A stretch of 64,000 bases of DNA from Dehalogenimonas sp. THU2 (GTDB lineage: Bacteria; Chloroflexota; Dehalococcoidia; Dehalococcoidales; Dehalococcoidaceae): assembly GCF_039749495.1 (NCBI RefSeq), contig NZ_JBDLLU010000010.1, forward strand, positions 1 through 64,000, given 5' to 3'. How positions within the stretch are numbered: the first letter of the stretch is position 1; each line of letters starts with the position of its first letter. Under the pieces are notes generated by a model. That model was not told where the DNA came from. It did not search any database and saw only the letters and a list, made by a program, of their open reading frames with translations. Positions 7,123-22,737 of this stretch are shown here, one piece after another. A program made the position numbers and the translations under genes.

Positions 7123-7281
7123 GGTTTTCACCCCCTTATCCGGTTGTGATTCTCCCCATATCAATGATAGCACTGTCGTAAAGAACCCGGGATGCGGGAA
7201 TGGTCACAGGATCATGTCTGCGACTGGAAAATCTCATCAGCCAGGTTTGGCGTTTTGACGGCGAAACCCTATACTGGGTAT

Positions 7282-7887
7282 ATGAATATTAAACTGACTG
7301 TGTTTTCCGACTATATCTGACCGTTCTGCTATATCGGCAAGGGACTTGTCGACAGTTTGCGTGATGAATTCGACATCGAAGATACCTGGCTCGGCTTTGA
7401 GATCCACCCGGAAACGCCGCCGGAAGGGGCTGATGTAAGCGGGAGATACGATCCTGAAGACATTGCCCAAATGAAACTCATGTTGAACCAGCGGGCCGAA
7501 GAACTGGGTCTGCCTTACGATCCGGCGCCTATATTGGCCAATTCCGCCCTGGCGCTGGCCGCGGCGGAATACGCCCGCGATAACAATCGTTTCGAGGAAT
7601 TCCACCGGGAAATGCTGGAAGCGGTCTTCGCCCGGGGACAGAATATCGGACTCCGGGAAGTTATCGCCGACACTGCCCACCGCGCCGGCTTGGACGGCGC
7701 CGATATGTTAAAAGCCATCGATGAGAACCGGTATGAGGAGAGGCTGAAGAAATCGCATGACCTCGGGCGACAGCTCAGGGTCACCGGCGTACCGACCTTT
7801 ATCGTCAACGACAGTTACAAGATCACCGGCGCCCAGCCCCTGGAGACATTTCGGGAGATTTTCCGCAAGGTCGAGAACCGGGAATAG
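7282..7887 (+). CDS. selenocysteine-containing DsbA/FrnE-like oxidoreductase (UPFC)
   Basis: A thioredoxin-fold DsbA-family protein of the FrnE type, 201 residues when TGA 7318-7320 is read as selenocysteine. The start MNIKLTVFSDYI-U-PFCYIGKG matches the family's FSDxxCPFCYIG with Sec13 replacing the first active-site Cys and Cys16 kept. The rest is family-typical: PPEGADVSGRY, a helical insertion, and the cis-Pro region VTGVPTFIVNDSYKITGAQ. Downstream of the TGA there is a selenocysteine-insertion hairpin, and the sel genes lie 5 kb away. A start at 7357 would delete the active site. The start ATG follows a -10 like TATACT (7270-7275) by six bases and has no ribosome binding site. No signal peptide, so probably cytoplasmic. 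Not proven: a read-through test is needed to exclude a nonsense mutation. Confidence 0.87.
7318..7352 (+). promoter_or_regulatory. bSECIS element of the FrnE-like selenoprotein
   Basis: UGA at 7318-7320 is followed by a hairpin with stem 7334-7341 paired to 7345-7352 (eight pairs, one G-U) and loop GGA. The loop lies 22 bases after the UGA and its first two bases are G, both as expected for a bacterial SECIS recognised by SelB. Confidence 0.72.
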
Positions 7888-7945: not shown

Positions 7946-8401
7946 ATGGCTGAGATAAAGGTCGTCGCCACCAACCAGAAGGCGTACCATAACTACTACA
8001 TCAGCGACCCGCTGGAAGCGGGACTGGTGCTGACCGGCACGGAGATCAAGTCTCTCCGCGGCGGCCGCGTCAATCTGGGAGATGCCTACGTACGGCCGGA
8101 TAACGGCGAGATGTGGCTCCTGAACGCCCACATCGCCCGGTACGACCCGGGCTCTTACATGAGCCACGAGCCGACCCGCCGCCGCAAGCTTCTCATCCAT
8201 AAAAAGCAGATGCGCATGATGCTCTCCCGCATCAAGGAGCAGGGCCTGACCCTGGTGCCGACCAAGATCTACATCAAGGGCAATATCGCCAAGGTGGAAA
8301 TCGCCGTGGGCAAGGGTAAGAAGCTCTACGACAAGCGGGAGGTCATCCAAAAGCGCGAGTCTGACCGCGAGCTCGGCCGGGTCCTTAAGAGCCGGCTCTA
8401 A
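7946..8401 (+). CDS. smpB: SsrA-binding protein SmpB
   Basis: SmpB brings tmRNA to stalled ribosomes in trans-translation. The 151-residue product is full length: AYHNYYISDPLEAGLVLTGTEIKSLR pattern near the start (residues 14-38), GYMSHEP-like segment SYMSHEPTRRRKLL, and the basic tail KRESDRELGRVLKSRL that folds in the decoding centre. It is directly followed by ssrA, its RNA partner, eight bases after the stop, and seems to be a leaderless transcript unit of its own or a read-through into ssrA. Confidence 0.97.
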   Translation: MAEIKVVATNQKAYHNYYISDPLEAGLVLTGTEIKSLRGGRVNLGDAYVRPDNGEMWLLNAHIARYDPGSYMSHEPTRRRKLLIHKKQMRMMLSRIKEQGLTLVPTKIYIKGNIAKVEIAVGKGKKLYDKREVIQKRESDRELGRVLKSRL

Positions 8402-8408
8402 ATAACCT

Positions 8409-8761
8409 GGGGACGCGTGGTTTCGACAGTGGAGGTTAGTTACGGAATTGCAGGTTGAGCTTGTCGCTAAGCTCATTAATCCTGGCGGCAAAAAACAACT
8501 GGCGAACGTGAACTCGTTCTCGCTGGCTAAATAACGCTAGCGCATCCGCCGCGCCTTACCCTGACGGGCGCGAATCGGGTGCCGACAGCCGGGGTGCCGC
8601 TGACCTGATGCCGATATGGGAAGCGAAAGAAAAATCGGCTTGCCCGGCGATATTCCGCCGGTTGAAGCTCAAAGGGCAAGAACAAAGATCCGGCTAAACC
8701 TGTAGCATATTTCGGGCAGTCTTCTCTGGACGGGGAGTTCGACTCTCCCCCGTCTCCACCA
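8409..8761 (+). ncRNA. ssrA: transfer-messenger RNA (tmRNA)
   Basis: The one-piece tmRNA starts GGGGACG (8409-8415), which pairs with CGTCTCC at 8751-8757, followed by A and an encoded CCA (8759-8761). The T-loop GTTCGACTC is present near the 3' end. The tag reading frame ends GERELVLAG at TAA 8528-8530, preceded by the usual resume region; I recall this tag ending from Dehalococcoides. In Dehalococcoides, islands with reductive dehalogenase genes insert at ssrA; here the gene is intact and followed directly by its terminator, so the site seems unoccupied on this side. Confidence 0.96.
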
Positions 8762-12547: not shown

Positions 12548-12558
12548 ACCCCTCTAGT

Positions 12559-12653
12559 GGAGGCGGATAGGCTCTGGTGGGCCTCGCGGTCTTCAAAACC
12601 GTAGGCGGCGGCGCAAACCGTCGCGGGGGGTTCGATTCCCTCCCCCTCCGCCA
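12559..12653 (+). tRNA. selC: selenocysteine tRNA (anticodon TCA)
   Basis: Anticodon loop CTTCAAA with TCA, a long extra arm (GGCGGCGGCGCAAACCGTCGC region), an eight-pair acceptor stem (GGAGGCGG with CCCCCTCC, one C-C mismatch), discriminator G12650 and encoded CCA (12651-12653). The 95-base length and 8-bp acceptor are the marks of bacterial tRNA-Sec. It heads the selC-selD-selA-selB locus. Confidence 0.95.
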
Positions 12654-12853: not shown

Positions 12854-13900
12854 ATGACAGAAAAACGCCTGACCGAATACTCCGCGTACTCCGGCTGAGC
12901 AGCCAAGATAGGTCCGGGTGACCTGGCTAAAGCGCTCTGCGGCTTGCCCGTCAAAGCTTACCCTGAGGTATTGGTCGGTCTGGAAAAGGCCGATGACGCC
13001 GGGGTCTACCAGCTCACGCCCGAAATCGCCCTGGTGCAAACGATCGACGTCATAACCCCGGTTATCGACGACCCCTTCGCCTTCGGCCAGGTAGCCGCAG
13101 CCAATTCCCTTTCCGATGTTTATGCCATGGGCGGGCGCCCGGTAACGGCCATGAGCTTCGTGGGTTTTCCCATGGGCGAGATCGACGTGGAAGTGCTGCG
13201 ACTGATGCTGGCAGGGGCTTTGAACAAGCTTGACGAAGCCGGTTGCGCCCTGGTGGGCGGCCACTCCGTCAAGGATGTCGAGATCAAGTTCGGCCTGTCG
13301 GTCACCGGTATCATTCACCCCGATAAGGTGCTGACCAAGGGCGGCGCCCGGGTGGGGGACCGGCTGATACTGACCAAGCCCCTGGGCACCGGCATTTTGA
13401 ACACCGCCCTCAAGGCCGACCTGCTGGAACCGGCGGCGGTGCAGATGGTCATCGGCCAGATGACGGCCCTGAACAAGGCCGCCGCCGAAGTCATGACCGA
13501 ACTTGGCGCTCACGCCGCCACCGACATCACCGGCTTCGGGCTGATAGGCCACGCCGCCGAGATGGCTGGGCTGGGCGAGGTCAGCTTCAAGATGAGTTTT
13601 AAAGCGATACCGCTGATGGATGGGGCGCGGCAATGGGCGGAGGCGGGGCTGGTACCCGGCGGCGCCTATTCCAACCGCGGGTACCGCGAGGATATACTGG
13701 ATATGGACCTGCCGCTGGTCGAGGACTGGATGCTGGATGTCATCTTCGACCCGCAGACCTCGGGCGGCCTGCTCATCGCTGCTCCGGAGAATGTCGCCAA
13801 CGAGATGGTCGAGCGCATCCGGCAGCGCGGTTTTCCGGCGGCCGCCGTCATCGGCGAGGTGCTGGCTGAACCGGCCGGGCGTATAATCATCACCGAATAA
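12854..13900 (+). CDS. selD: selenophosphate synthetase, itself a selenoprotein
   Basis: SelD makes selenophosphate from selenide and ATP, the Se donor for Sec-tRNA. With TGA 12896-12898 read as Sec, the protein has 348 residues and begins MTEKRLTEYSAYSG-U-AAKIGP, where Sec15 takes the place of the catalytic Cys seen in other SelDs. Further motifs: DDAGVYQL, TIDVITPVIDDPFAFGQVAA in pieces, the Gly-rich VGGHSVKD, TDITGFGLIGHA and DPQTSGGLL. The ATG at 12854 has AAGGTGG upstream. A start at 12944 would miss the active-site loop. The tRNA-Sec gene is upstream; selA follows after 11 bases. Confidence 0.94.
12896..12928 (+). promoter_or_regulatory. bSECIS element of selD
   Basis: After UGA 12896-12898: AGCCA (12901-12905) pairs with TGGCT (12924-12928), and GGTC (12911-12914) with GACC (12920-12923) around loop CGGGT; AGATA forms a one-sided internal bulge. 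The apical loop lies about 17 bases after the UGA and contains G residues, as SelB requires. Confidence 0.7.
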
Positions 13901-13911
13901 AGGCGGTAAAA

Positions 13912-15291
13912 ATGGCTAACGAGACGCAGAACGAACTCCGTAAACTGCCCGCCGTGGAGAAAGTGCTCTCCGACCCGGCGCTAACGGCAGCCATCGAACG
14001 TTTCTCTCACCCGGTCGTCACCGAGGCGGTCCGGGCGGTTGTCGAAGAACTCCGCCAGGGTGTCGCCGCCGGGGGCACGGTGCCGGCCTTCGAAGGCATC
14101 ATCGATACTGTGAAAACCCGCCTGGCCGAAGATTGGCCGGGCTTCCTCCAGCCGGTCATCAACGCCACCGGCATCATCCTGCACACCAATCTCGGCCGGT
14201 CGCCGCTTTCGGCGGAAGTGGTTTCGACGCTGGCGGGCATACTGGGCGGCTATTACGCCCTGGAACTGGACCTCAACACCGGCGAGCGCGGCGTGCGTGC
14301 CCGGGAGATGGAAAAGCTGCTGCGGCTGGTCACCGGCGCCGAGAGCGCCCTCGTAGTCAACAATAACGCCGCCGCAGTGCTGCTGGTGTTGTCCGCGCTG
14401 GCTCACGGACGGGAAGTCATCGTCTCACGCTCTGAACTGGTGCAGATCGGCGGCGGTTTCCGGGTGCCGGAGGTCATGGCCCAGTCCGGCGCCATCATGC
14501 GAGAAGTGGGCACCACTAACCAGACCTTCGCCCGCGATTTCGAACAGGCGGTGAACGACAACACGGCCATGATCATGGCCGTCCACCGCTCCAACTTCGC
14601 CCTGCGCGGCTTCACCCACGACGCCTCACTGGCCGAACTCAGGGAAGTAACCAATAACTTCGGCCTGCCGCTGGTTTACGACCTGGGCAGCGGGGCTTTG
14701 ACCGATACCGCCGCTTACGGTATGTGCCACGAGCCGACGGTGGGGGAGGCTCTGGAGGCCGGCGCCGACATCGTCTGCGTCTCCGGCGACAAGCTGCTGG
14801 GCGGGCCGCAGTGCGGCATCATCCTGGGTAAGAAGGTCTGGCTCGACCAGCTCCGGAAACACCCGCTGCTGCGGGCTGTGCGGGTGGACAAGTACGCCGC
14901 TATCGCCCTGTCGGCCACTCTTTTACATTATCTCAAGAGCGATACCGCCGGACTGCCGGTTTATGCCATGATGCAAACCTCTGTCGAGAGCCTCGAAGAG
15001 CGGGGCAAGGCCATGGCGGCGCGGCTAGCCGCATCCGGCATCGAAGCCGAGGTCATCGACGGAGAAAGCCTGGCTGGCGGCGGCTCGCTGCCTGATGAAA
15101 CGCTGCCGACGAAACTGGTCGCCATGAACGTTAAAGGACATATCGAAGATTTCTGCCGCCGCCTGCGGCTGGGAACGCCGCCGGTGCTGGGCCGAGTAAA
15201 CGAGGGGCGCTTCGTCATTGACCTCAGGACGGTATTCCCGGCGCAGGACGGCAACCTGGCGATGGCTGTCATTGCGGCTTTGAGGTCCTAA
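13912..15291 (+). CDS. selA: L-seryl-tRNA(Sec) selenium transferase
   Basis: PLP enzyme that converts seryl-tRNA(Sec) to selenocysteyl-tRNA(Sec) with selenophosphate. The 459 residues are full length: N-terminal tRNA-binding helices ([12 protein letters not shown]), [28 protein letters not shown], and the PLP lysine at about residue 294 in [22 protein letters not shown]-type closing strand [14 protein letters not shown] is present. It is eleven bases after selD and three bases before selB, one operon. Confidence 0.97.
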
Positions 15292-15294
15292 CCC

Positions 15295-17175
15295 ATGATC
15301 ACCCTCGGCACTGCCGGCCATATCGACCACGGTAAATCGAGCGTGGTCAAGGCTCTCACTTCGATCGACCCCGACCGTCTGCCCGAAGAAAAAGAGCGCG
15401 GCATGACCATCGACCTCGGCTTCGCCTGGTTCGCTCTGCCGAACGGCGAAAAAGTGGGACTGGTGGACGTACCTGGGCATCAACACTTCGTTCGCAACGT
15501 CATCCCCGGCCTGACCGGCATCGACGCCGTCATGCTGATCATTGCCGTCGACGACGGCTGGATGCCCCAGACCGAGGAGCACCTTCAGATCATCGACCTT
15601 TTGGGTATTTCGAAGGGTATCATCGTCCTCAACAAGATCGACCTGGTGGAGGCCGACTGGCGGGAAATGGTCAAGGCCGATATCGCCGAACACCTGACCG
15701 GAACGGCCCTGGCCGACGCCCCAATTATCGACGTCAGCGCTAAGAGCGGCCTGGGCATCGATGACCTTAAAACGGCCATCGGCAGGCTGGTGGCCGGCGC
15801 TGGGCAGACCGATACCGGCAAACCGCGACTGCCCATCGACCGCGTCTTCACCATCAAGGGCGCCGGCACGGTCATCACCGGCACGCTACATCACGGCACG
15901 CTCTCCGTCGGTGACGAGGTGACCATCCTGCCCGGAGGCGCCCGGGCGCAGGTCCGCGGCATAGAAAGCTATAAAGAACACCTTGCCCGGGCGCGTCCCG
16001 GTTCCCGGGTGGCTTTGAACCTGCCCGGGGTCAAGAAAGAAGACCTGGAACGCGGCGATGTCATCGTTACCCGAGGCGCGGAGACGCCGCTGTCCCGTTA
16101 CCTGGACGCCGAACTGCGCCTCCTGCCGGCGTTGAAACAACCGCTTAAAACCGGCACCGAACTGACGCTGTTCTTTGAGACGACCGAGTTGCCGGCGCGG
16201 GTAATCGCTCTGTCCGGCCGGGAAATTGCCCCGGAGGAGGGTCCGGCGCTGGTGCAGTTCCGGCTTCCCGGCGAAGTGGCCGCCTTTATCGGCGAGCGTT
16301 TCATCGTGCGCCGCGCTGCCACGGAGACCATCGGCGGCGGGAAAATCCTCGACCCGGCAGCGGAACGCTACCAGCTCAAAAACGCCGCGCGTCAGATCGA
16401 GCGCCTGGAAAAACGGAGGGATCTGACTCTGGAAAGCCTGATCGCCACCGAGCTCGATAAGACAGGGTTTTCGGCCAGGCGAGGCTTTTTACAGGCCAGC
16501 CCCTTCGGCACGGCGGCTATAACTAAAAAAATCGAGACCATGTCCAAAAGTGGCGCCCTGGTCATCACCGGCGAATGGCTGATCGATGCCGGTTTCTGGC
16601 TAGAACGGACTAAATCGCTTCTTGATCAACTTGCGGCGGAACACAAGGCGCAGCCGCTGAAAAAAGGCGTCCCGCAAGCTGAAGCCGCGGCCAAATTAAA
16701 ACTACCCTCTGAATTATTCACAGCCCTGATCGAGGAATTCATCCGGAACAAGAAAATCACCCGCACCGAGGATATCCTGGCCTTGTCTTCCCACAAGCCC
16801 CAGCTCTCCGGCGGCCAGGCGGAACTGGAAAGCAGGATTATCGCCGCCGTCATGAAAAATCCAGCAGCTCCACCAACCCGGTCAGAGCTGCTGCAATCGG
16901 TGCCGGGCGCCACGAACGTCCTGCGCTATATGCTGGAACAGGGTAAGCTGGTAGAGCTGCCTGAAGGTATCGTCCTGACCGCGGCACAGTACCGCGAGAT
17001 CCGGCAAAAGGTCATCGATATCCTTAAGAGCCAGGGGCAGATCGCCATCCAGGATGTGAGCGCCGCCACCGGCTTTTCCCGCAAGTACAGCATCCCCTTC
17101 CTCACCCGTTTGGACCAGGAAGGTATCACCCGCCGGCAGGAGAACGTCCGGGTACCGGCCCGAAACCTGGATTGA
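15295..17175 (+). CDS. selB: selenocysteine-specific elongation factor
   Basis: GTPase that delivers Sec-tRNA to UGA codons flagged by a SECIS hairpin. G motifs: GHIDHGKSS (residues 8-16), [15 protein letters not shown] and SAKSG. The EF-Tu-like domains 2 and 3 follow, and residues from about 370 to 626 form the winged-helix repeats that bind SECIS RNA (last one: [19 protein letters not shown]-like region). Length 626 is normal. It closes the selC-D-A-B locus, so the organism has the full Sec pathway except for SerRS, which is encoded elsewhere. Confidence 0.97.
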
Positions 17176-20115: not shown

Positions 20116-21309
20116 CTAACGTGCCGTCAACCGTCCGAATATGCCGGCAAACCAGGCCCTTATTTTAAGTATTACGTCCATGGTGGCGCCCACCGGACAG
20201 AGATAATGGCACCAGAAATCATGAATGAACATTGCTATTCCCAGCATTGCGACAACCAATAACCACTGAACAAGATTACCCTCGAGACTGAACAGGGTAT
20301 TCCATGGTTCAAACACAGAGAGCTGCGGCTGGCGGAAAACGAGCACCAGTATCACCACCGCCCACAGGATAACGTACCGAGTGTTGCGTAGCGCCAGTTG
20401 TCGCCGGGTCACCGGACGAACTTTACCGCCAGCGATAAAATAAGCACCTTCCTGGAGAGCGCAGAACGGGCATATCCAGAAACACCAGAAGTTTTTGGCA
20501 AAGATCAGTGCCAGCCCGATGATACCGAAAACCAGGATATAGAGATACAGGTTGGTTACCGGTGAGGGTGCGTAGCCGATAGGGAATACGACAAAGTTAA
20601 TCAGAGACAGCATACCCTTGAGTGCGATACCGAAGATGATAAGACCGAACCAAAGCATTGCGTTACGTGGCCACCGCATCTTTCTAAGTCCTGGTATTAT
20701 TCTCAAAGCCACCACTAAACTGAGACCGATGAGGAGGAGATACTCCGGCGGTCCGAGCTTGATCTGTTCTTTTTGGCCGACGAATGGTTGACCCAGATGT
20801 TCGGCCAACAACAAACGGCCATCATACACACCCTGGGCAATCCCGCGGGCTGAACGGGTAGCTCCGGCGACGCTATCGATATCTTCACCAAGAGTAAAGG
20901 GATCGGTAAATGTCCGGCCGATATACTGGCTGAAATAATCGTTATCGAAGATACGCGCGTACCAACTAGGTGTCTCCTGATCTTCTGGCACAAGTATGTT
21001 TAAAATAGTTCCATCGTTATCCCACGCTGCCGTCACCAGCATCGGGCCTCCGTAACCCTGACCTTGGCCGGCAGTGATATAGCCGATCTGGGAACCATTG
21101 GCTAAGGCGGAAAATAGATACTGATTATCGGCAGGCCGGCTTGAGATAAGCTCAAAAGAGCTTGCCTCCGGCATTGTCTCTGGCAGATAGGTTTCAACAT
21201 CCGTTGAGAGAGTTAGTTCACCGAACAACCATGCACCGAGGAAACTAAAAATCACACCGGCGACGAGGAGTTTTTTCCCATGGAGTGTCCAGAAATCGTT
21301 CCGCGCCAA
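20116..21309 (-). CDS. RdhC/NosR-like FMN-binding membrane protein, paralog 2
   Basis: A 397-residue membrane flavoprotein. An N-terminal helix (about 13-31) precedes an exoplasmic FMN-binding domain with YGGPMLV and the attachment motif DSVAGATRS, Thr 151 being the predicted site of covalent FMN. Five or so membrane helices follow, with two CX3CP motifs, CFWICP (Cys 276, 280) and CHYLCP (Cys 367, 371), as in NosR and in RdhC/PceC of organohalide-respiring bacteria. Such proteins are thought to carry electrons across the membrane. Its closest relative in the window is the gene at 21508. No rdhA/rdhB or nos gene is adjacent, so its acceptor is open. Confidence 0.88.
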   Translation of the reverse strand: MARNDFWTLHGKKLLVAGVIFSFLGAWLFGELTLSTDVETYLPETMPEASSFELISSRPADNQYLFSALANGSQIGYITAGQGQGYGGPMLVTAAWDNDGTILNILVPEDQETPSWYARIFDNDYFSQYIGRTFTDPFTLGEDIDSVAGATRSARGIAQGVYDGRLLLAEHLGQPFVGQKEQIKLGPPEYLLLIGLSLVVALRIIPGLRKMRWPRNAMLWFGLIIFGIALKGMLSLINFVVFPIGYAPSPVTNLYLYILVFGIIGLALIFAKNFWCFWICPFCALQEGAYFIAGGKVRPVTRRQLALRNTRYVILWAVVILVLVFRQPQLSVFEPWNTLFSLEGNLVQWLLVVAMLGIAMFIHDFWCHYLCPVGATMDVILKIRAWFAGIFGRLTAR

Positions 21310-21433
21310 CTCAAACCCTCTCTTTTATGCCCCGGATAACCCCGCCATGTCCGAGGAAAATACCACTGTAATCTGCCATTACAATACTGGTTAAGAAGGA
21401 TAGCACTGGCCTCCTCCGGAGTCAAACCCGCCT

Positions 21434-21565
21434 CTACCCCAGCACGACCGCCACTTTATTGAAAATAACGTAGAGCGCTATCACGAACCCCGTACCGGCT
21501 AATAGTGCTACGAAGATGTTCGCGGTGCGTCGTGGCTTGCCGCGGATTTGTTGTTTTTGTGCCAT
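21434..21565 (-). CDS. possible 43-residue single-helix membrane protein
   Basis: Unrecognised. From ATG 21565 (GGGGGG about ten bases upstream) it gives a basic N-terminus (MAQKQQIRGKPRRTAN) and one hydrophobic helix (IFVALLAGTGFVIALYVIF). It overlaps the 3' end of the upstream flavoprotein gene by 58 bases in another frame, and is followed by 124 bases before the next gene. The topology (positive inside, one helix) would suit a small subunit of the membrane complex. It could be a chance frame. Confidence 0.45.
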   Translation of the reverse strand: MAQKQQIRGKPRRTANIFVALLAGTGFVIALYVIFNKVAVVLG

Positions 21566-22737
21566 AGTTCGATAACCCCCCGGCGGACTCTTAAAATGAT
21601 ATCCATGACCGCGCCGATCGGACAGAGATAATGACACCAAAAGTCATAGATAAAGATAGCGGCACCTAGGGCGAAAATCATCAACACCCATTGATCGGCG
21701 GTACCTTTCAAACTAAAGAGCACGTTCCATGGTTCAAAAACCGATACCGACGGATTCTTCAGTGCCAGGACCAGGAACAGAGCGATGAACAAGAGCAGAT
21801 AACGCGCGTTCCGCAGAAATTTGAACCACTTGACGTCGGGCTGGATTCTTACACGGAATATGGAATGTATCAATTCCTGAACTGCTACATATGGACAAAG
21901 CCAGAAACAATAAAAATTCTTGCCCAGTACGACCGCCAGACCTAATATACCGAAGACAATGATGTATATCATGATGAACGTTTCCACAGGAGGTGCGTAA
22001 CCCACCAGCCATGCGGCGATGTTGGTCAGACTCAGGGGTACTGAAAGCCAGATACCGAAAACCACCAGGCTGTAGGCAAGCATGGTACCCCGCGCCCATG
22101 TGAGTCGCCTGAACAGGGGTATGGTCCGCAGTAACACAACCGATAAGATGCCCGCGATAACGGCGATCTCCGGCGTCCCGAACTGGATGGGGTCACCCGG
22201 TCCTGTGAAAGGTTGACCCAGGTGACTGGCCAAAACGCCGCGACCGGCACGCACCCCTACCGCGACGCCGTTGGAGGAGACAGTTGAGCCAGTGGCGGCG
22301 TCGATATCTTCGTTCAGCCGTAACGGTTCGATGAAACCGCGCCCGTTGTACTGTTGAAAAAAGCCTCGCTGTTCCAACGCGCGCCACCAGGGAATATCCT
22401 CGTGGTGTTCCGGAACCGTGACGCCGGTAATGACGCCGTCCAGGGTCCAGTTGACCAGCACCGTCATCGGCCCACCGTAACCGGGTCCCTCTGCGGCGGT
22501 GACATAACTCAGATCCTGTCCATCGGCGTCCCTTGCCACGAACAAGACTGTGCCACCGCTGGAGCGCAAGGCATTAAAAGTTACGGCGCCGGGTACGCTG
22601 TCCGGTAAAAAAGGTTCGAAGCCGGATAAACCGTGACTGAACTGCCCATAAATGGCGGCGCCCAGCAGCGCCACCACCGCCAGAGCGAAGACTGCCCTGG
22701 AGACATGACGTTTGAACAAGCTACCGGTTGGCACCAT
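21508..22737 (-). CDS. RdhC/NosR-like FMN-binding membrane protein, paralog 1
   Basis: The 409-residue paralog of the 20116 gene and first gene of the operon. N-terminal helix (about 14-30), exoplasmic FMN domain with YGGPMTVLV and the motif DAATGSTVSS (Thr 152 is the predicted FMN site; GST instead of the usual GAT), then membrane helices with CFWLCP (Cys 277, 281) and CHYLCP (Cys 368, 372). VFEPWNVLFSLKG before the last helices is shared almost exactly with the paralog. A basic, Ser-rich C-terminus is unique to this copy. Two copies in one operon may form a heterodimer or two parallel routes. Confidence 0.88.
   Translation of the reverse strand: MVPTGSLFKRHVSRAVFALAVVALLGAAIYGQFSHGLSGFEPFLPDSVPGAVTFNALRSSGGTVLFVARDADGQDLSYVTAAEGPGYGGPMTVLVNWTLDGVITGVTVPEHHEDIPWWRALEQRGFFQQYNGRGFIEPLRLNEDIDAATGSTVSSNGVAVGVRAGRGVLASHLGQPFTGPGDPIQFGTPEIAVIAGILSVVLLRTIPLFRRLTWARGTMLAYSLVVFGIWLSVPLSLTNIAAWLVGYAPPVETFIMIYIIVFGILGLAVVLGKNFYCFWLCPYVAVQELIHSIFRVRIQPDVKWFKFLRNARYLLLFIALFLVLALKNPSVSVFEPWNVLFSLKGTADQWVLMIFALGAAIFIYDFWCHYLCPIGAVMDIILRVRRGVIELWHKNNKSAASHDAPRTSS

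Follow-up and report, generated by a model that had tools for sequence, protein, structure and literature searches.

A gene of Dehalogenimonas sp. THU2 that looks interrupted by a stop codon is almost certainly that of a selenium-containing redox enzyme

The stretch of DNA analysed here, hereafter the window, comprises 64,000 nucleotides (positions 1 to 64,000 of contig NZ_JBDLLU010000010.1, assembly GCF_039749495.1) of Dehalogenimonas sp. THU2. On its forward strand, a frame of 201 codons (7282-7887) has as its sole interruption a TGA codon at 7318-7320. With this TGA read as selenocysteine (Sec), the product is a protein of 201 amino acids that begins with MNIKLTVFSDYIUPFCYIG and carries Sec at residue 13, within the putative active-site motif UPFC (Sec13/Cys16). 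Cys16 is the only cysteine of the protein besides the Sec position, and Sec13/Cys16 would therefore be its only redox pair. Under the standard code (table 11), the first start past the TGA is TTG 7357, 75 bases downstream of position 7282, so that a standard gene caller loses the active site, and the mechanically listed open reading frame does begin late in the way that the initial annotation of this DNA had described. Several genes of the window, among them selB and recA, terminate with TGA, and this codon is therefore still a stop in the organism and has not been reassigned.

The gene is adjoined by smpB (at 7946), and a tmRNA gene (8409-8761, forward strand; tag GERELVLAG) lies directly after smpB. 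Further downstream on the same strand, the window encodes a tRNA-Sec (selC, 12558-12652; RF01852, 70.3 bits), selD (12854-13900), the selenocysteine synthase gene selA (13912-15291) and selB, coding for the Sec-specific elongation factor (15295-17175; TIGR00475, 343.9 bits), selD and selA being named by sequence and position. The tRNA-Sec gene starts 4.7 kb past the end of the TGA-containing gene and is followed by selD, selA and selB, which agrees with the distance of about 5 kb first given for the sel operon. selD is itself a selenoprotein gene (TGA 12896-12898, in SGUAAKIGPGDL); its listed open reading frame begins late, at TTG 12944, and the hairpin that follows this TGA is unremarkable when taken alone (z 0.32). 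The genome of strain THU2 thus encodes tRNA-Sec, SelA, SelB and SelD, and a survey of the genus reports selCDAB in all the Dehalogenimonas genomes that it analysed (PMC13390414). SelD and formate dehydrogenase selenoproteins have been described in Dehalogenimonas alkenigignens (PMC4918011). Elsewhere, the reverse strand of the window codes for a glutamine cyclotransferase family protein (PF05096; 3526-4353) and for a tandem pair of proteins, possibly respiratory, that contain FMN_bind and 4Fe-4S (Fer4_5) domains (20116-22737), and the genome as a whole has 23 matches, some of them partial, to the reductive dehalogenase family.

The protein encoded at 7282-7887 belongs to the Pfam family DSBA (PF01323, E 2.7e-36); no NCBIfam model scored above its cut-off. 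By sequence, its closest relative of solved structure is FrnE of Deinococcus radiodurans (E 5e-19). The structure predicted from the protein together with 43 Cys-containing homologs has a mean pLDDT of 94 and matches FrnE best (5cp1; Z 26.3, rmsd 1.9 A over 201 residues), followed by SCO1869 of Streptomyces and then by HCCA isomerase and kappa-class glutathione transferase (Z 21-22). Foldseek likewise ranked FrnE and SCO1869 first, with HCCA isomerase and kappa-class glutathione transferase also in its list. Most homologs carry UPWC or UPFC at the active site. In the predicted structure the first strand begins at residue 3, which would leave no room for a signal peptide. By analogy with FrnE, the protein most likely acts in the cytosol as a disulfide reductase or isomerase; the direction of the reaction, the recycling partner and the substrate are ones that we infer. 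Clustering of the neighbouring genes over the scanned loci gave no constant partner that would point to a substrate, and several of the clusters look like spurious reverse-strand frames.

The identity of codon 13 was followed across the class. Homologs at E 1e-15 or better were present in 151 of 393 genomes, and the site was read in the best 150 matches listed (to about E 1e-23) and in two loci from a further genome of the order. The 157 rows read were reduced to 152 distinct loci after removal of one with a gap at the site (L105) and of four duplicates (L082, L083, L084, L087). Among these listed loci the active-site codon is TGA in 113, TGC in 29 and TGT in 10, with no other codon in any of them, and this confirms that the TGA sits at the position of the first active-site Cys. 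Upstream of the TGA, the codons show conservation at the protein level across the class loci. In other phyla, the site was a Cys codon at all 80 loci, which were collected with six peptide patterns, one of them spanning the active site and unable to match TGA. Replacement of the TGA by a sense codon other than Cys, named at the outset as evidence that would speak against a selenoprotein, was thus found at none of the 152 listed class loci and at none of the 80 loci of other phyla. Within the genus (eight genomes), the gene is carried by the window genome and by three of the seven others, and the four carriers all have TGA at the same codon. Among the genus carriers, most differences are at third codon positions (25, 14 and 92 at positions one, two and three, respectively, against the nearest relative), and the third-position bias extends upstream of the TGA. 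The gene is missing from the other four genomes of the genus, all of which encode SelB; these have different DNA upstream of smpB, where no gene remnant was found, and in G005, one of these four, the only homolog is distant and partial and is located elsewhere. On the best tree of the class loci about 20 switches between Sec and Cys are counted, at least nine of them required by well-supported branches, this being a quick tree with SH-aLRT support only, on which parsimony cannot separate gain from loss. Furthermore, four genomes (G013, G127, G146, G390) each hold a TGA copy and a Cys copy of the gene, forming natural Sec/Cys paralog pairs.

A predicted bacterial SECIS element follows the TGA on the forward strand. 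Its stem of 8 bp (7334-7341 and 7345-7352; TCGGCAAG/CTTGTCGA) closes a GGA loop (7342-7344) and its spacing from the UGA is 21 nt. Published rules for bacterial SECIS elements give a loop of 3-9 nt, a stem of 4-16 bp, a G within the first two loop positions, a spacing of 16-37 nt and a minimum free energy at or below -7.5 (PMC13188914), and the hairpin agrees with those on loop, stem, G and spacing. As for energy, the identical 19-nt core (locus L104) gives -8.0, within the limit of -7.5, and the extended form of the window gives -6.1. Taken alone, the stability of the hairpin is ordinary (z about -0.5; 53 of 200 shuffles fold as well or better), and its rank among synonymous recodings is 0.07. 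As the single hairpin has no excess stability, a comparison across homologs was used. In a fixed register, 708 of 816 cells are paired in 102 TGA sequences versus 199 of 312 in 39 Cys sequences, and seven of the eight pairs show changes on both sides among the aligned TGA homologs. The set consisted of 102 TGA sequences distinct over 40 nt, which gave 100 distinct rows in the covariation alignment. In this alignment 86.5% of the cells are paired and the covariation score reaches 0.317, whereas shuffling gives 0.121 on average (none of 500 shuffles reaches 0.317) and slid registers give at most 0.122. A recoding test on 150 sequences distinct over 54 nt pointed the same way: the best SECIS-like hairpin averages -9.35 kcal/mol in 111 TGA genes versus -5.25 kcal/mol after synonymous recoding (Wilcoxon p 1.5e-19), and -4.47 versus -4.41 in 39 Cys genes (p 0.77), these p-values being overstated because they ignore relatedness. 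By the scoring rule, the hairpin is weak or displaced at six TGA loci (L131, L169, L177, L183, L246, L250). The description of this element as a good SECIS hairpin in the initial annotation therefore holds by the published rules and by covariation in the class but not for the single sequence, which is statistically unremarkable, and the check proposed there, a search for the hairpin in related genomes, came out in its favour, with covariation in seven of eight pairs over the 102 TGA homologs.

The TGA form of the gene also tracks SelB. The tRNA-Sec family search lacked specificity, with hits in all 61 genomes and in all 14 controls, and was applied to the window only, and a SelB family search, in which three candidates were scored per genome, was confounded by EF-Tu-like matches and was replaced by protein searches with the SelB of the window as query (E 1e-45). 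SelB was detected in 101 of 111 TGA-bearing genomes (72 of 80 plus 29 of 31) versus 10 of 34 Cys-only genomes (Fisher p 4.5e-12, overstated because the class loci are non-independent). When the count is restricted to the better genomes (completeness of 90% or more, contamination of 5% or less), the corresponding figures are 55 of 58 and 7 of 20. Eight tree-independent pairs (starred branches) could be formed from 148 rows, the four Cys paralogs in TGA-holding genomes and 10 rows from other phyla being left out, and in these pairs SelB changed in the same direction 6.2 times and in the opposite direction 0.1 times on average (median p 0.031). SelB was not found by this search in 10 TGA-bearing genomes (G100, G103, G152, G205, G306, G322, G327, G380, G407, G410), most of them fragmented or incomplete drafts, with three among the 58 better ones. 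It was also absent from all three genomes of the search set that represent the other genus of the family.

From this comparative evidence (homology, the predicted fold, exchange of Sec and Cys, a covarying SECIS and co-occurrence with SelB) we infer the insertion of Sec, and residue 13 is very probably Sec. The locus at 7282-7887, apparently broken by a stop codon, is almost certainly the gene of a selenium-containing redox enzyme. To the fuller reading, that the product is a cytosolic thiol-disulfide oxidoreductase of FrnE type and that the UGA at codon 13 is decoded as Sec by means of tRNA-Sec and SelB, we give a probability of roughly 0.9. A selenoprotein of DsbA/FrnE type with UPFC, as originally proposed for this locus, is thus upheld by the Pfam DSBA and FrnE matches as well as by the same comparative evidence.

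Other explanations were weighed against this reading. The TGA might be a true stop. It would then end a short peptide encoded upstream, or the gene would be a truncated one with its start at TTG 7357 and no active site. This is exactly what the standard code yields, and the hairpin alone is not significant; however, the coding stretch ahead of the TGA shows protein-level conservation across the class loci, the -10 box discussed below lies 6 nt ahead of ATG 7282 in all four genus carriers, and among the listed loci the TGA is exchanged only with Cys codons and tracks SelB, all of which make a true stop highly improbable. Readthrough of the UGA with Cys or another standard residue instead of Sec would fit the occurrence of Cys as the other residue found there, and 10 TGA-bearing genomes have no detected SelB. 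The covariation of the SECIS, the tRNA-Sec and selDAB operon close by and the association of the TGA form with SelB, together with the fragmented or incomplete state of most of the SelB-negative genomes, argue against such readthrough, which we regard as very unlikely, if slightly less so than a true stop. As to a sequencing or assembly error at 7318-7320, the initial annotation had named such an error as a reason to abandon the selenoprotein, and it is practically excluded because the identical TGA is shared by three separate genomes of the genus and by 113 of the 152 listed class loci.

A further alternative accepts the selenoprotein and assigns it to the HCCA isomerase and kappa-class glutathione transferase branch of the fold, as a glutathione-transferase-like or isomerase enzyme. 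The structures that come after FrnE and SCO1869 in the comparison and in Foldseek are of this kind (Z 21-22), but FrnE is clearly nearer (Z 26.3; E 5e-19) and UPFC retains the two-residue redox motif of FrnE-type enzymes (PMC8945050). This assignment is therefore unlikely, though less so than the other alternatives, and the FrnE-type selenoprotein is the reading followed below.

Sec-containing DsbA-like proteins are already known, and what is added here is a class-wide set, the covariation of the SECIS and the tracking of SelB. COG2761, to which some of the known proteins have been assigned, is presumably the COG of FrnE. Nine Sec-containing DsbA-like sequences (COG2761, UxxC) were predicted in 2005 from the Sargasso Sea (PMC1088965), and others were reported in Anaeromyxobacter, Desulfovibrio desulfuricans and Desulfotomaculum (PMC1794560) and in Asgard archaea (PMC11227280), with a further listing in PMC9312934. 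DsbA-like selenoproteins were catalogued in 2026 as forms 1 and 2 (PMC13188914). The window protein matches, by description, the family and motif of form 1 (UxxC, PF01323; published accession NIP15863.1); the hosts named for this form in the accessible text of the published sources are Deltaproteobacteria, Desulfotomaculum, a marine metagenome and Asgard archaea, without Dehalococcoidia among them. Form 2 (a crotonase/enoyl-CoA hydratase family protein; DxxUP, PF01323) with the published accession MDP6049977.1 is also matched, again by description, by D-Y-I-U-P of the window protein, and a crotonase-like neighbour occurs at 21 of the neighbour-scanned loci (a cluster named by eye from sequence); however, the window gene differs from form 2 in being adjoined by smpB and tmRNA and by no crotonase. 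The FrnE of D. radiodurans (DR_0659; 5cp1/5cnw) has CP(W/F)C in the same place, with Cys where the window protein has Sec. It is predicted to be cytosolic, is reported to be stress-induced and to reduce DTNB with thioredoxin reductase, and has a C-terminal CXXXXC that aids its regeneration (PMC8945050). This CXXXXC is missing in the window protein, in which Cys16 is the only Cys; some FrnE proteins likewise have no CXXXXC (PMC8945050), which is therefore not defining for the whole family. A literature search, by listings and the passages cited here, found no paper naming a DsbA/FrnE-like selenoprotein in Dehalogenimonas.

In the proposed mechanism, the UGA at codon 13 would be decoded by tRNA-Sec and SelB under the direction of the stem-loop, with 21 nt between the UGA and the apical loop that follows it. 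The selenolate of Sec13 would then attack, as nucleophile, a disulfide of a cytosolic substrate, Cys16 would resolve the intermediate between Sec13 and the substrate, and an outside thiol reductase would re-reduce the resulting Sec-Cys bond.

The start of the message was also considered. A promoter-like element (TTGGCG-17-TATACT; 7247-7275, forward strand) has a -10 box (7270-7275) that ends 6 nt before the ATG, and each of the four genus carriers has a -10 box (TATACT or TATAAT) with this same spacing from its ATG. Likewise, smpB has a -10 box 6-8 nt ahead of its start codon, conserved in the genus. Over the class, a -10 box placed 5-8 nt ahead of a candidate start occurs at 38 of 152 loci versus 1.9 expected at random upstream positions, with related loci counted singly, at most three starts per locus in both the observed and the control set, and the start-proximal composition unmatched. 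The placement of the box supports ATG 7282 as the start; it suggests that the message of the Sec gene is leaderless, and the smpB message is probably leaderless too. The SECIS of the window ends 71 nt from the A of the ATG. Compared with E. coli-type SECIS/SelB decoding, the UGA would here lie at codon 13 of a probably leaderless message. A search of the literature for leaderless messages with Sec returned nothing by title. Tentatively, and with less than even odds, we propose that the Sec enzyme of this class is often made from leaderless messages, with the start at the 5' end, the SECIS within the first 70-odd nt and the UGA near codon 13-22, and that gains and losses of SelB went along with repeated exchange of Sec and Cys in the gene, on at least 9 and probably about 20 occasions.

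Since callers that use the standard code truncate the gene just past the active site, its redox chemistry is likely to be missed in annotation. The 113 Sec and 39 Cys forms among the matches listed, related by many switches, constitute matched natural variants in which the benefit of Sec to a disulfide enzyme can be studied. Should the leaderless-looking start prove real, it would be relevant to decoding by SelB near the 5' end of a message. If the tentative proposal for the class is true, Sec insertion must work right after leaderless initiation, and the clade would be a natural laboratory for why Sec is kept.
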